Below, piece by piece: positions 52,824 to 60,225 of a stretch of DNA of 64,000 bases. The stretch spans positions 1 through 64,000 of the forward strand of contig CADEGN010000006.1 of assembly GCA_902826865.1 (NCBI GenBank), written 5' to 3'. Source of the DNA: an uncultured Myxococcales bacterium (GTDB taxonomy: Bacteria; Myxococcota_A; Polyangia; Nannocystales; Nannocystaceae). The notes under the pieces are model-generated. The model saw nothing but the letters and a program-made list of their open reading frames with translations. It made no database searches and was not told where the DNA came from. Position numbers and translations under genes: made by a program. Position 1 is the first letter of the stretch, and every line of letters begins with the position of its first letter.

Positions 52824-53423
52824 TCAGCGTAGCTGAGCGACGATGCTCTCGAGTGCTGTGAGACCGAACATGATCTTCTTCACGAACGAAGAATTGTGGG
52901 CGACGACGGTGAGTCGCGGGTGTTTCGACCAAAGCCTTCGTAGTCTTCGATCCAGCTCGAGTGCCTCGTCCATGGTTTCGATGCGCGTCGGGTTGCCGCC
53001 CTCGATCGAAGTTCCCCCGGCCGCGGCCGTCTCGAAGAAGATTACGGCATCATAGCGGGCCAGCTCTCGCTCCTCCGTGGTTCCGACCGCGTCGAAGTAG
53101 CCCTGCGAGTCGTGGGGCCAATAGGCAGCACCATCGATGGTGCCGCGGTCACACAGCAATATTCGATCGGGGTACAGCGCCGACTGAACGTCCTCAAGAT
53201 GGGTCTGCACGTGGAAGATCGCGCACTGGGCAGACTTGCGGGCGTGAAGCTCGGACGATCGAGGAAATCCTCCCGAGAACAGGAGTGTCGCCGCCTCGGG
53301 GACAACGACGACGCTTTCGCCGATCTCGCGGCGAAACAAGTCGGCCGCGGTGGTTTTCCCGCCGCCCGGGCCTCCGGTGAGGACGATGCGGCATCGTCCA
53401 TTGGGTACTGCAGGTGGTTCCAT
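52824..53423 (-). CDS. AAA_28-type ATPase
   Basis: A 199-residue P-loop NTPase. GGPGGGKTT near residues 17-25 is the Walker A motif; ILLCDRGTIDGAAYW in the middle and VVVPEAATLLFSGGFP are typical of the AAA_28/Ttd14-like family, which resembles small-molecule kinases. Function in bacteria is unknown; phosphoryl transfer on a nucleotide-like or lipid ligand is possible. The ATG at 53423 gives a standard N-terminus. It is 60 bp from the convergent ferritin-like gene. Confidence 0.85.
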   Translation of the reverse strand: MEPPAVPNGRCRIVLTGGPGGGKTTAADLFRREIGESVVVVPEAATLLFSGGFPRSSELHARKSAQCAIFHVQTHLEDVQSALYPDRILLCDRGTIDGAAYWPHDSQGYFDAVGTTEERELARYDAVIFFETAAAGGTSIEGGNPTRIETMDEALELDRRLRRLWSKHPRLTVVAHNSSFVKKIMFGLTALESIVAQLR

Positions 53424-55399: not shown

Positions 55400-56371
55400 C
55401 TACCAGACGTAACCGACCACGCCCTCGTCGAGCAACCCATAGTTTGCGAGGGCGGAAGCGTGTTCGGCGGCGCTGTTGGTGAAGAAATGGTCGCCGCTAC
55501 TCGGATTGAAGGAACGGTAGAGCGCGGTTGACCCAGGCAACCCCGACGTGCCGATGTAACCGAGCACGCCTTCGTTGTAGGGCAGCCCTTCACAACCCGG
55601 GTCGGTCGTGTAGTGGTGAAATCCACTCGCTTGGAAGCAACGATAAAAGGCCGTGGTCCCGACCTGGCTGGCGGCGTAGAGCCGGAAGAACGGTGAGGCC
55701 TCCTGCTGATAGCCGCAACAGAACCCTTCATTGGGATCGACCGAATAGAAGTGCTCGCCACGGCTCGGATGCCACCAGCGCGTGATCTCGACTTGGCAGG
55801 CGGCGACTCCATCGTCAACAGCCCCGTCGCAGTCGTCATCGACGATATTGCAGGTCTCGTCCTGCGGTTGTGGGGCATCGCATCCGGTCCAGCCGCCGGA
55901 CGTGCACACCTCGATGCCGGTGCCACACGCGTTGACGCAGGCCTGCGCGAGATCCTCGTCGGTAACACCGTCACAGTCGTCGTCGACGCCGTTGCACTGC
56001 TCTTCCGTGGGCGCAGCCGGAATACACGGGTTAGGGACCCCACCCACGCACGCGACGACAGTCGCTGCGCAGACCCCCGCACCGCAGGAGAGATCAGGCA
56101 GGCCGTTGTCGACCATACCGTCGTCATCATCGTCGAGCCCGTTACAAACCTCGTCCGCAGGTCCGTCCCCACTTGTGTCAACCGCGGACGACGATCCCTC
56201 GCCGTCGAGCGCTGTCCCAGTGTCCTGCCCGCCCTCCGACGACACGCCGGTCTCACTACCGCCGAGTGTCGCGATCCCAGAGCCACCTGTGGTTTCGACG
56301 CTCGCGACGCAGCTCCATGGCAACGCGATCGTCCAAACGACCCGCTGCAACCGCGCCGGTAGTTGCCCCAT
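55400..56371 (-). CDS. MopE-type repeat and DUF5648 surface lipoprotein
   Basis: A 323-residue predicted lipoprotein (MGQLPARLQRVVWTIALPWSC). The linker is Ser/Gly/Thr-rich; then come three calcium-type MopE repeats with CNGLDDDDDGMVD, CNGVDDDCDGVTDE and CNIVDDDCDGAVDD, separated by Cys-rich spacers. The C-terminal ~130 residues (RWWHPSRGEHFYSVDPNEGF ... FYRCFQASGFHHYTTDPGCE) match the DUF5648 beta-repeat domain often attached to secreted hydrolases and adhesins. Probably a surface binding protein. Met1 of a longer frame at 56410 is less likely. Confidence 0.85.
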   Translation of the reverse strand: MGQLPARLQRVVWTIALPWSCVASVETTGGSGIATLGGSETGVSSEGGQDTGTALDGEGSSSAVDTSGDGPADEVCNGLDDDDDGMVDNGLPDLSCGAGVCAATVVACVGGVPNPCIPAAPTEEQCNGVDDDCDGVTDEDLAQACVNACGTGIEVCTSGGWTGCDAPQPQDETCNIVDDDCDGAVDDGVAACQVEITRWWHPSRGEHFYSVDPNEGFCCGYQQEASPFFRLYAASQVGTTAFYRCFQASGFHHYTTDPGCEGLPYNEGVLGYIGTSGLPGSTALYRSFNPSSGDHFFTNSAAEHASALANYGLLDEGVVGYVW

Positions 56372-56518
56372 TGCAGTCCAATCGTAGACGGCCACCAATG
56401 CGGCAGGCAAGGACCAACGGTGGTGGGGTAGGACGCGGCCTGATGACGTCGTTTTCGATCTTTTGCGCAGCGGCCATGGGGCCTCGGCGCCTGGCCGCTT
56501 CGCTCGCAGCCAGGAGGG

Positions 56519-57991
56519 TCACTGTCCAAAGCCGGCCCGACGCTCCCACCCCTTCTTGATGCCCTCGGCGAGCATCTCGTCGGCAATCTTCATCGCCGCG
56601 GCCTCGTTTGGGGCGAGCCGCACCTCGCGCTGAAGCGGGTCTTTGCGACCTGCGCTGAAATCGGTGAACTGCACGACGTAGGCCGGGTACCCGAGCGCCC
56701 GATCGATCTCGTGCTTGTTGGTCTTCCACACGATCAGCTTCCGCACCGCAACTTCACCCTTGGCCGCCTTGGTGTAGACCTCGCGCCGAACGATCTCACT
56801 TTGCGGCAACACCAGGCGATCGGCGTGTCTGTCGATCCCAGCCACCAAACACCGCTCTTGCACTTGCGCCACGCGGACATCGACGGGATCGACGCGCTTG
56901 TCGTCACGCACGCGCAGTAACACCGGGTGCAAGATGCTAACACCGGGAAGCTCGCAGACGCGACGCCAGGCACCGCCTTGCCACTCGAGGATCATGCGAG
57001 AAATAGGGTCGCCGCTTGAATCCTCGCTTTGGATGTCGGTGACCTTGATCTCGACGACGAGCTCGGGGCGCACGTAGCGGTACAGGGCGCCGCGGTTGTT
57101 GGCGTAGCGGTAATTCGACTCGGCGTGCTGCGCCGAAAGCAAAGGCATGAGCGCCAGGCGTTGCTCGGTTGGCATGTTTCCGCACGACCCGATGACCTGC
57201 ATCTGGCCGTCCTCGCGCATCAGGCCCAGCAGCAGCGAGCCGACGCGATCGGGCCCCTCCGACGACGCGGTGTAGCCGAGGACTGCGGCGTCGATCGAGA
57301 TCGCCGGCTTGGCCTTGTAGATCGACTCGTCGCTGCCGCGGATCACAAGGCCTTCGCCCTTGCCGCCCTCGACCCATTCGGCGAAAAGCGCGGCCACGGC
57401 TTCGCCCCCGCTCACGACTTCGGTCTTCACGGCGCGCACCCGCTTGCCGCCCTCGAACAGCCGCGAGAGCGAAGCAAGACGTTCCGCATAGGCGGCGGCT
57501 TGCTCGGGACCATCGGCCGCGCCACCGCGCAACGAATCGAACGCCGCGAACGCCATGCGCTCGACTGCGGCCTTTTCCTCGCCACCCATCGCGTTCGCGA
57601 GATCGCCCACGCGAGGGCGGCCGCCTGTGCGCGCGGCATAGAGCTCGCCAGTCACGACGGTCCGCGCATGCGCCCGCGCGACCAAGGCACGCGCCTCGGC
57701 CAGCAACGGAAGGTTGCCCGACACCACGCGCCCCGAAGGCGCGGTGAGGAAAACGTCGCCGCCATCGAATATGAGAAACCACAACTCGCCGTCGACCTTG
57801 GGCGACACTCGCAGGGGACCCGCCGGCAATGACGTCAGCAGCTCGTCCTTCACGAGGGCGCGGTAGCGGCTCGCCACGCCGCGCTTGTAGCCGCGCAACA
57901 TCGTGACGAGCTCAGTGTCGAGCAAACTGCCGGCGGGGGAGTGCAGGCCTTGGCCGAGCGCGCGGGCCCCTTCGGTCGAAAACAAACTCAT
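56519..57991 (-). CDS. ATP-dependent polynucleotide ligase
   Basis: A 490-residue covalent nucleotidyltransferase. Motif I SPKVDGELW has the adenylated Lys65 (the usual last Arg of KxDGxR is Leu70); motif III TGELYA has Glu116, IIIa FAAFDS is at 148-153, IV EGLVIR at 213-218, and V IYKAKP at 224-229. The next domain (VGSLLLGLMREDGQMQVIGSCG) fits the OB fold, and a further ~130-residue domain follows. This is a DNA or RNA ligase, not the NAD-dependent type; no Ku or LigD partner is present. It is the last gene of a three-gene operon; its ATG overlaps the stop of the middle gene (57988-57991). The two partner proteins are of unknown family. Confidence 0.88.
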   Translation of the reverse strand: MSLFSTEGARALGQGLHSPAGSLLDTELVTMLRGYKRGVASRYRALVKDELLTSLPAGPLRVSPKVDGELWFLIFDGGDVFLTAPSGRVVSGNLPLLAEARALVARAHARTVVTGELYAARTGGRPRVGDLANAMGGEEKAAVERMAFAAFDSLRGGAADGPEQAAAYAERLASLSRLFEGGKRVRAVKTEVVSGGEAVAALFAEWVEGGKGEGLVIRGSDESIYKAKPAISIDAAVLGYTASSEGPDRVGSLLLGLMREDGQMQVIGSCGNMPTEQRLALMPLLSAQHAESNYRYANNRGALYRYVRPELVVEIKVTDIQSEDSSGDPISRMILEWQGGAWRRVCELPGVSILHPVLLRVRDDKRVDPVDVRVAQVQERCLVAGIDRHADRLVLPQSEIVRREVYTKAAKGEVAVRKLIVWKTNKHEIDRALGYPAYVVQFTDFSAGRKDPLQREVRLAPNEAAAMKIADEMLAEGIKKGWERRAGFGQ

Positions 57992-58680
57992 GTCGGCACC
58001 CTCAGCTCAAGGTTCGAGAGGTGAAGCAAGAGTTGATAGCGGGCGCCGTCGACCCTCCCCTCAAGAAAGCCGCGGTATGGCGTGCCGTTCTCTTGAAACA
58101 CAAGTGGATCACGGCCACGCGCCCCCGCTCCTAGCATGGCGAGCACGCCTTCGTCGGCGAGTTGCTTGGCCATCGCATAGAGGAAATCGTAGGTGAGCCC
58201 GTCAACATGGCGGATCGCGACCGTGCGGCGAAATGCGAACTTCGCGATGGCTTCGGGTTTGGCGATCTTCTTGCCGGCGATGCGGACCGCGTCGACCTCG
58301 TTGATGTTCCCCGGCGTATCAGCGGCCGGTTTGCGATCGCGTTCGGTGCCGTCGGGGCCGATGAGCACATCGACGACCTGCGGGGAGACGTGCATGACGT
58401 TACCGTCGGCCGACAGGTACACCGGGGTGGTGTCACCGATGAGCCGCCCGACCTGCTCGAGATCGATCTCAGGGTCGCCATCGATGATGGCTTGCGCGAG
58501 TTGGTCACCATGGGCGGCGAGCAACGGCGCGTGCAGACCCGGCTCGGTCGCAGCGAGGTAGCGCTGAAACACGACGGTCTTGCCCGGGACGCCGAGCTTG
58601 GGGCTTGGGATCTCGGGGATCGACTCGATCGCGATCGTGGCATCGCGACTGGCCTCGTTCATCAGGTGGATCTTACGCAT
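57988..58680 (-). CDS. Hypothetical protein, ligase operon (middle gene)
   Basis: A 230-residue soluble protein that I do not recognise. Its N-terminal half includes PVYLSADGNVMHVSPQVVDVLIGPDGTERDR, its C-terminal half KIAKPEAIAKFAFRRTVAIRHVDGLTYDFLYAMAKQLADEG and a beta-rich end (FLEGRVDGARYQLLLHLSNLEL). No nuclease, kinase or NTPase motif is visible. The stop overlaps the ligase ATG by 4 bases, so it is translated with the ligase; it starts 24 bp after the first gene of the operon. A substrate-recognition or end-processing role is possible by context only. Confidence 0.75.
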   Translation of the reverse strand: MRKIHLMNEASRDATIAIESIPEIPSPKLGVPGKTVVFQRYLAATEPGLHAPLLAAHGDQLAQAIIDGDPEIDLEQVGRLIGDTTPVYLSADGNVMHVSPQVVDVLIGPDGTERDRKPAADTPGNINEVDAVRIAGKKIAKPEAIAKFAFRRTVAIRHVDGLTYDFLYAMAKQLADEGVLAMLGAGARGRDPLVFQENGTPYRGFLEGRVDGARYQLLLHLSNLELRVPT

Positions 58681-58704
58681 GGTGAACTCCGCGGCGTCTC
58701 GCGA

Positions 58705-59307
58705 TCAGAACATCTCGAAGTCGAGATCGTCGTCGTCTTCGGGCGTGTCGAAGGTGGCTGTTGCGGGCAGTTCGAGCGCAGCCCACGACGAGACGGCTGG
58801 GCGCCCCACCAACGCGAAGTACCCGGTGTCGTTGGCAATGAGGATCGCGGTCTCGGCCTGAAAGTCCGGGCGGTAGTTGAACGTGAAACGAAACGCCGCG
58901 CCCCCACGCAGAAGCTCGGCGAGCCCGGGATCGAGTTGCTCCGGCTCGAGGACGTAGACCGTGCGCACCGCGAGATCGAGCACCTCCTCGGCGGCGATCG
59001 GGCCTTGCAAAGCCTGGGCAACACCGAGCGTCGACGGCACCTGCGACAGTGCGTTGCCCGCCTTGTCGAGCCCGACCAGCTCGCGATTAGGAATCCACGT
59101 GCCAACTTCGTCGAAGTAGCCTTGCGCCGTCATGCCAGCGCGGACGATCAATGCACCGTCCCGCGTGAGCTCGGCGCGTTGGCAGCGGCCGCCCTCGGGG
59201 TCGAGCGGTCGCCGCTCGCGGCGGCCGTAGAGCTTGGTGCGATCGAGCTTGTCCATCGCAAAGCTGGACTCGACTCCACCGAGCGTGACGACGATCGACT
59301 TGGCCAC
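58705..59307 (-). CDS. Hypothetical protein, ligase operon (first gene)
   Basis: A 200-residue protein, first of the ligase operon. It starts MAKSIVVTLGGVESSFAMDKLDRTKLYGRR and has conserved-looking patches (GRCQRAELTRDGALIVRAGMTAQGYFDEVG, VPSTLGVAQ, FRFTFNYRPDFQAETAILIANDTG) before a very acidic tail (TPEDDDDLDFEMF). It is neither exported nor membrane-bound. The acidic C-terminus could mimic DNA or bind a partner. No known family. Confidence 0.75.
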   Translation of the reverse strand: MAKSIVVTLGGVESSFAMDKLDRTKLYGRRERRPLDPEGGRCQRAELTRDGALIVRAGMTAQGYFDEVGTWIPNRELVGLDKAGNALSQVPSTLGVAQALQGPIAAEEVLDLAVRTVYVLEPEQLDPGLAELLRGGAAFRFTFNYRPDFQAETAILIANDTGYFALVGRPAVSSWAALELPATATFDTPEDDDDLDFEMF

Positions 59308-59598: not shown

Positions 59599-60225
59599 TC
59601 ACGCGTACGAGCGCCGTTTCGTATCGAGGACGAACGGATACCCGTTCTCATCCAAGAGATCGAGAAATTCGTTTAGCCCCTCGTCGCTGTTTCTCACCAG
59701 CCGATACTCGGCATCCGAGATCAGGTGCACGACAAGCGTTCGCACCCGGTGATCTTCGAGGGCCAGCTGATCGAATAGTTGCCGGTCAGTCCCATTGATC
59801 GATGGCAACAAAAGAAACGTCTTGAACTTGCCGAAGCTCAGCGGTGGCCTTGGCATCGGCACGGTGTGACCGTGGCCGAACCACGTCTTGTCTACAAAGG
59901 GCAGATTCGCCAACCAGCGAAGGTTTGCGAAATACTCGGAGTTCAAGTCGCGTACGTACCAGATCAACTCCGCCGCCAGCGACTCGTCGCCGTCCACGTT
60001 CGGACTTCGGTGCATGAGGCGGTCGCTCATCCCCGAAGTGACGAGCTGATAGCCTTCGTCGTCGTCAGACTCGTCATCGCACTCTTCGATGAAGTTGCGA
60101 CCGAACGCGTAGATGTCCACCGGGTGGGTGGTAGAGGGGTCTTTGTCGAGGTACTCGTCATCCCCCAACTCAGACCTCATGGCGGCAAGTCTGGCTTTGG
60201 CGCTGTTGCGTTTCACCGTTCGCAA
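59599..60225 (-). CDS. SUFU (suppressor of fused)-domain protein
   Basis: A 208-residue protein with an acidic insertion (EECDDESDDDEGYQL). WFGHGHTVPMPRPPLS, FKTFLLLPSINGTD and RVRTLVVHLISDAEYRLVRN ... GLNEFLDLL match the SUFU domain. In bacteria, this fold is best known as an immunity protein against polymorphic toxins. No toxin gene is adjacent: the neighbours are the ligase operon and a lipoprotein, so this may be an orphan immunity gene or have another role. The gene has one possible ATG at 60225; the first 30 residues are Arg/Lys-rich. Confidence 0.8.
   Translation of the reverse strand: MRTVKRNSAKARLAAMRSELGDDEYLDKDPSTTHPVDIYAFGRNFIEECDDESDDDEGYQLVTSGMSDRLMHRSPNVDGDESLAAELIWYVRDLNSEYFANLRWLANLPFVDKTWFGHGHTVPMPRPPLSFGKFKTFLLLPSINGTDRQLFDQLALEDHRVRTLVVHLISDAEYRLVRNSDEGLNEFLDLLDENGYPFVLDTKRRSYA

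Follow-up and report, generated by a model that had tools for sequence, protein, structure and literature searches.

A conserved three-gene operon of Myxococcota, encoding an ATP-dependent DNA ligase and two proteins with predicted Ku folds, as a probable sequence-cryptic NHEJ module

The Ku protein of bacteria (PF02735), which works with LigD in NHEJ, is described as a homodimer, and heterodimers have been speculated upon only among recognisable paralogues (PMC5124664, PMC7719229, PMC11936186, PMC12784961, PMC12784962), such as those of Streptomyces (PMC5124664). More than one Ku per bacterium is found in Streptomyces (KuA, KuB and KuC) and in Sinorhizobium (up to four). In eukaryotes, two distinct Ku-fold proteins, Ku70 and Ku80, are combined with an ATP-dependent DNA ligase, DNA ligase IV. 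Ku-like architecture is also found outside NHEJ in the human proteins INTS14 and M1AP (PMC11377751). In Deinococcus radiodurans, an unusual ATP-dependent ligase is encoded in an operon of three genes (DRB0098-DRB0100; PMC1997131); this ligase consists of the adenylation domain only and is accompanied by an HD phosphatase/kinase and a macro-like protein.

Here we describe a three-gene operon that shares features with each of these systems. It resembles bacterial Ku and LigD in the predicted Ku core fold and in having an ATP-dependent ligase of its own, with a profile match to the LigD/LigC ligase domain. However, the single homodimeric Ku is replaced by two different Ku-fold proteins, both missed by the Ku profile, the first of which bears an acidic tail, and the ligase has a WGR-like tail but neither the polymerase nor the phosphoesterase domain of LigD. 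As in the Ku70/Ku80-ligase IV system, two distinct Ku-fold proteins accompany an ATP-dependent DNA ligase, but the likeness of the pair is by predicted fold only, the two proteins are core-sized (200-230 aa) without vWA or SAP domains, and the ligase has no BRCT domain. The Streptomyces and Sinorhizobium paralogues, unlike these proteins, are recognisable Ku and are not constantly paired in one operon with a ligase. In contrast to the D. radiodurans operon, the partners are Ku-fold proteins by prediction and the ligase carries an OB fold and a putative WGR-like domain. A literature search, which reached few subscription papers, found no published description of this operon.

The window (the whole 64,000-nt stretch of DNA analysed) is the start of contig C6 in an 8.5 Mb genome, whose named relatives include Nannocystis (Nannocystaceae, Myxococcota). 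ORF analysis of the window identified three co-directional genes on the minus strand in the order first, middle and ligase (Table 1), the ligase being single-copy in the genome. The first gene lies 24 bp upstream of the middle gene, and the middle and ligase genes overlap by 4 bp (57988-57991), which confirms the layout proposed in an initial annotation made from the sequence alone. Promoter and terminator scans were uninformative. Directly upstream of the operon is a gene for a SUFU-domain protein (59602-60225, minus strand; Pfam E=1.7e-20), which is not conserved with the operon, and the other flank carries genes for an AAA_28 P-loop protein (52827-53423, minus strand) and a MopE-motif/DUF5648 protein (55403-56410, minus strand).

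Table 1. Genes of the operon and features of their predicted products (window coordinates).
Feature	Position	Strand	Extent	Description	Basis
First gene	58705-59307	-	200 aa, GTG start	Predicted Ku fold (Ku-like subunit A)	ORF, AF2 model, Foldseek
Acidic disordered C-terminal tail of first protein	58708-58749	-	Residues 187-200	DTPEDDDDLDFEMF	Alignment, composition
Middle gene	57988-58680	-	230 aa, ATG start	Predicted Ku fold (Ku-like subunit B)	ORF, AF2 model, Foldseek
Ligase gene	56519-57991	-	490 aa, ATG start	ATP-dependent DNA ligase	ORF, Pfam, PDB profile
Nucleotidyltransferase domain of ligase	57311-57844	-	Residues 50-227	Catalytic K65	DNA_ligase_A_M, PF01068
OB-fold domain of ligase	56897-57247	-	Residues 249-365		DNA_ligase_A_C, PF04679, E=8.4e-10
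WGR-like C-terminal region of ligase	56546-56749	-	About residues 415-482	Match spans 454-482	hhalign

Sequence comparison did not connect the first and middle proteins with any family. Neither was matched in Pfam, NCBIfam, PHROGs or PADLOC, a Pfam search with all of their orthologues returned nothing, and a PDB sequence-profile search with their alignments gave nothing meaningful. The Ku profile (PF02735) matched neither protein nor any orthologue in any genome. When aligned with canonical Ku by hhalign, the first and middle proteins gave non-significant E-values of 0.064 and 0.2, and column-shuffled Ku profiles often scored as high as the real one; the positions of the best local matches were plausible, but we attach no importance to this. 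The same program aligned the two proteins with each other at E=4e-4, with a probability of only 33%. Profile searches also did not place the three proteins together in a described repair system.

The predicted structures gave a different answer. The two proteins were folded separately and without templates by AlphaFold2, and both models appear to adopt the Ku core fold, as judged by Foldseek against the PDB for both and against a viral library for the first. The model of the first protein (pLDDT 84.2, pTM 0.71; alignment of 42 orthologues) matched MtbKu (E=2.4e-4), B. subtilis Ku (E=3.5e-4) and then Ku70/80 in the PDB; ranks 1-37 were Ku or Ku-containing complexes, and an Integrator structure followed at rank 38. 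Against viral models it had only two significant matches, both of them phage Ku, namely a phage 'COG1273 Ku-homolog' (E=6.3e-6) and the Ku of mycobacteriophage Dylan (E=2.7e-4), the next match being at 0.57. The model of the middle protein (pLDDT 78.2, pTM 0.56; alignment of 43 orthologues) had 56 PDB matches at or below 1e-3, the best Ku reaching E=8.9e-6. Among the matches listed for it, 50 of 50 were Ku or Ku-containing complexes, headed by chains of human NHEJ complexes and of the Ku heterodimer. The TM-scores to Ku were about 0.36-0.50 with an rmsd of 7-12 Å, the subdomains not superposing as a rigid body. As the specificity for Ku is seen in two adjacent and mutually dissimilar proteins, a chance origin of this link is unlikely. 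The initial annotation had assigned the two proteins to no recognised family and had seen no Ku next to the ligase. The former statement holds for the sequence libraries but not for the predicted folds, and the latter is probably wrong in substance, since both partner models have the Ku fold; of the searches suggested there for the two partners, profiles found nothing and structure prediction gave Ku.

The very acidic end noticed earlier in the first gene product (PEDDDDLDFEMF) is real and conserved. It is of the DDDLDFEMF type, with a terminal Phe in 35 of the 42 orthologues and a DFEMF end in 24, and coincides with low pLDDT at residues 185-199 of the model. The C-terminal tip of SSB is similar to this tail in style, not in sequence. 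A docking peptide is a plausible candidate role for the DFEMF tail. Even without the tail, the core of the first protein has a net charge of about -9, compared with +2 for canonical Ku, while the bulk of the middle protein is slightly acidic. The acidity of the first protein calls for caution because it is unexpected in a subunit lining a DNA pore.

The ligase contains the motifs K65-V-D-G-E-L, G-E116-L, FAAFDS, EGLVIR and YKAKP. In the alignment of 39 orthologues, K65, D67 and E116 are kept in 90% or more of the sequences, and G68, D152, G214, R218 and K228 are invariant. Motif I has Leu in place of Arg, the family consensus being K-x-D-G-E-L-W. The motifs first read from the single sequence are conserved over the 39 orthologues, and the substitution is part of the family consensus. 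At one locus (L058; G078:C48:47612-48937), the motif I lysine region of the orthologous ligase is replaced by SPWTPGR; this ligase keeps the C-terminal domain and is, to judge from its sequence, apparently catalytically dead, and the genes have been retained in the lineage, which is a further reason for caution about the proposed function.

Searched against the PDB, the ligase family profile matched archaeal DNA ligases (E ~1e-15), human DNA ligase I and the ligase domain of M. tuberculosis LigD, and the NCBIfam LigD/LigC models also matched the ligase, well below their curated cut-offs. DNA_ligase_A_C was found in all 39 members (best E 2.1e-14) and RNA_ligase (PF09414) in 12 of the 39 (best E 1.7e-5), the RNA ligase profile fitting the family worse than the DNA ligase profile. 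RNA ligation, one of the functions initially considered, is disfavoured because the profile is of the DNA-ligase type, fitting archaeal/eukaryotic DNA ligases and LigD/LigC best, and because the partners resemble a binder of double-strand-break ends. By Pfam boundaries, about 125 residues extend past the OB fold, which bears out the extra C-terminal domain of about 130 residues noted before. hhalign aligned a WGR profile to this C-terminus with a probability of 72-76% and E 2-4e-5 over only 29 columns of its C-terminal half, compared with 0.2% for the reversed control; the Pfam WGR model (PF05406) gave no match at E<=1 in the 39 members. By these comparisons, the ligase is composed of a DNA-ligase core, an OB fold and a putative WGR-like C-terminal domain. 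The WGR domains of PARPs make DNA contacts. Pfam and NCBIfam detected no polymerase or 3'-phosphoesterase domain in the 490 aa ligase, and no conserved neighbour gene supplies one in divergent loci.

We searched 379 genomes of the phylum in six frames for the three proteins and found that the genes travel together. The first and middle proteins were each found in 51 genomes, 50 of which were shared; all 50 also have the ATP-dependent DNA ligase, with the three genes contiguous in 49, and full-length ligase orthologues occur in essentially the same genomes. The set spans some 46 genera. The first and middle genes were on one strand in 80/80 resolved loci (median gap 14 bp), as were the middle and ligase genes in 84/84 (median -4 bp), some loci coming from the same genome. 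The partners occurred in no genome without the ligase, except for one first gene (G189) whose contig ends 84 bp later, and a ligase found by itself (G321) starts 136 bp from a contig end. Members of one genus (L155, L156 and L157) have the first gene on another contig (G188) or have the middle and ligase genes with no first gene found (G373). No fourth gene was conserved across divergent loci, where the other shared ORFs either overlap the three or are lineage-specific.

The co-occurrence, near-perfect within the phylum, reaches a few Burkholderiales, Limnohabitans sp. 2KL-1 and MAGs; among 200 genomes of this order, the set was present in one, the query genome itself. In the ligase tree, the Burkholderiales sequences group with a Myxococcota-side sequence (support 99/98), a topology consistent with horizontal transfer to Burkholderiales. 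The Burkholderiales loci (L067, L068, L069 and L070) have the operon in an island together with ankyrin-repeat proteins, an NAD-dependent DNA ligase, a TIR protein, a weakly SLATT-like protein, a DUF4132 protein and a WGR/LRV protein. The NAD-dependent ligase of this island has a BRCT domain and, in L069, a true WGR domain; some of the island proteins match PADLOC candidate families. All three genes are also carried by a 10.6 kb IMG/VR contig classed as viral (L145), which is probably a misclassified bacterial fragment, as its other genes are not clearly phage-like. The operon was not carried by reference plasmids and phages, and a further viral scan, made with the first protein, gave no match.

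We compared the distribution of the operon with that of the classical NHEJ genes. Of the 379 genomes, 69 carried canonical Ku (PF02735), and none of the matches fell on the first or middle genes. The operon and canonical Ku occurred together in 7 genomes, against about 9.5 expected by chance, so the module does not depend on classical NHEJ. No canonical Ku was seen in 14 of 19 carrier genomes examined and no LigD polymerase domain in 12 of 20, though many of these are draft MAGs, in which single absences are weak. On another contig of the source genome, a canonical Ku is encoded near a LigD polymerase domain (C455:837-3995; G000, L097), which makes the three-gene module a second system there, and two end-joining systems may coexist in this organism. 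Tandem pairs of canonical PF02735 Ku genes were observed elsewhere in the phylum (G150:C105:219969-221250, G355:C10:24835-26122 and G071:C291:19497-20883), possibly another heterodimeric arrangement.

We propose an NHEJ-like function for this operon, although by sequence its partners fall outside PF02735 and its ligase is not LigD, and consider it likely that the operon is a self-contained, sequence-cryptic NHEJ module made of a heterodimeric Ku and its own ligase. Two clearly different Ku-fold proteins are predicted from adjacent genes that are kept together across some 46 genera, which suggests a heterodimer; the first and middle proteins would be divergent Ku-fold subunits, most likely pairing as a heterodimeric ring. 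This ring would thread onto broken double-stranded DNA ends and recruit the ATP-dependent ligase of the same operon, which would seal them. The ligase probably contacts DNA through its WGR-like C-terminal domain, and docking is a plausible role for the acidic DFEMF tail of the first subunit. As no nuclease or polymerase is linked to the operon, the module would act preferentially on ends that can be ligated directly or take processing enzymes from elsewhere. This scheme agrees with the nucleic-acid repair role that had been among the initial suggestions, and the three-gene linkage supports it.

The acidic or near neutral character of both subunits, together with the lack of a linked end-processing enzyme, also suits a Ku-like heterodimeric scaffold in the style of INTS13/INTS14, which would bring the ligase to nicks, replication ends, structured RNA or other nucleic acid with no end joining. 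We regard this reading as unlikely: human precedents exist in INTS14 and M1AP, and an Integrator structure does appear at rank 38 for the first protein, but the best structural matches are to Ku proteins that bind ends, those of bacteria and phages among them, and the enzyme encoded alongside is a DNA ligase, with which Ku naturally pairs.

Considerably less probable is an anti-phage or mobile-element defence module whose proteins recognise foreign DNA ends. PADLOC matches none of the three proteins, there is no effector within the operon, and a single, doubtful virus-classed contig carries it. The patchy distribution (about one seventh of genomes) and the horizontal transfer to Burkholderiales would be in keeping with defence, as would the island there with its TIR, SLATT-like, ankyrin, WGR and DUF4132 proteins, some of them PADLOC candidates, but this island is confined to one lineage and no defence neighbour is conserved in Myxococcota. 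Least credible is that the likeness to Ku arises artefactually when AlphaFold2 and Foldseek are applied to beta-barrels, and that the partners form a new family, unrelated to Ku, at the service of an RNA- or DNA-repair ligase. The modest TM-scores, the missing sequence-profile link and the low pTM of the middle protein speak for this reading. Against it, the two proteins, dissimilar as they are, each independently yield top lists made up of Ku alone, aligned over the full length; the significant viral matches are Ku only, the next E-value being more than three orders of magnitude higher; and generic barrels would also match OB, SH3 or other barrels.

With the cryptic NHEJ module as the preferred reading, we incline, on balance, to the broader view that the operon represents an unrecognised class of bacterial end joining, in which an obligately heterodimeric cryptic Ku acts with a WGR-tailed ligase independently of canonical Ku/LigD, as the prokaryotic equivalent of the Ku70/Ku80 split, whether by convergence or by ancestry. 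A two-subunit Ku encoded in an operon would be unexpected in bacteria. Surveys of NHEJ in bacteria depend on Ku being recognisable and, if this interpretation is true, have missed a whole system, which would be present in about one in seven of the genomes sampled from the phylum, mostly in those without canonical Ku. The origin of the Ku70/Ku80 heterodimer would then be open to study with small bacterial proteins, the operon would provide a compact three-protein end-joining kit, and the view of which bacteria can join broken ends would have to be revised.
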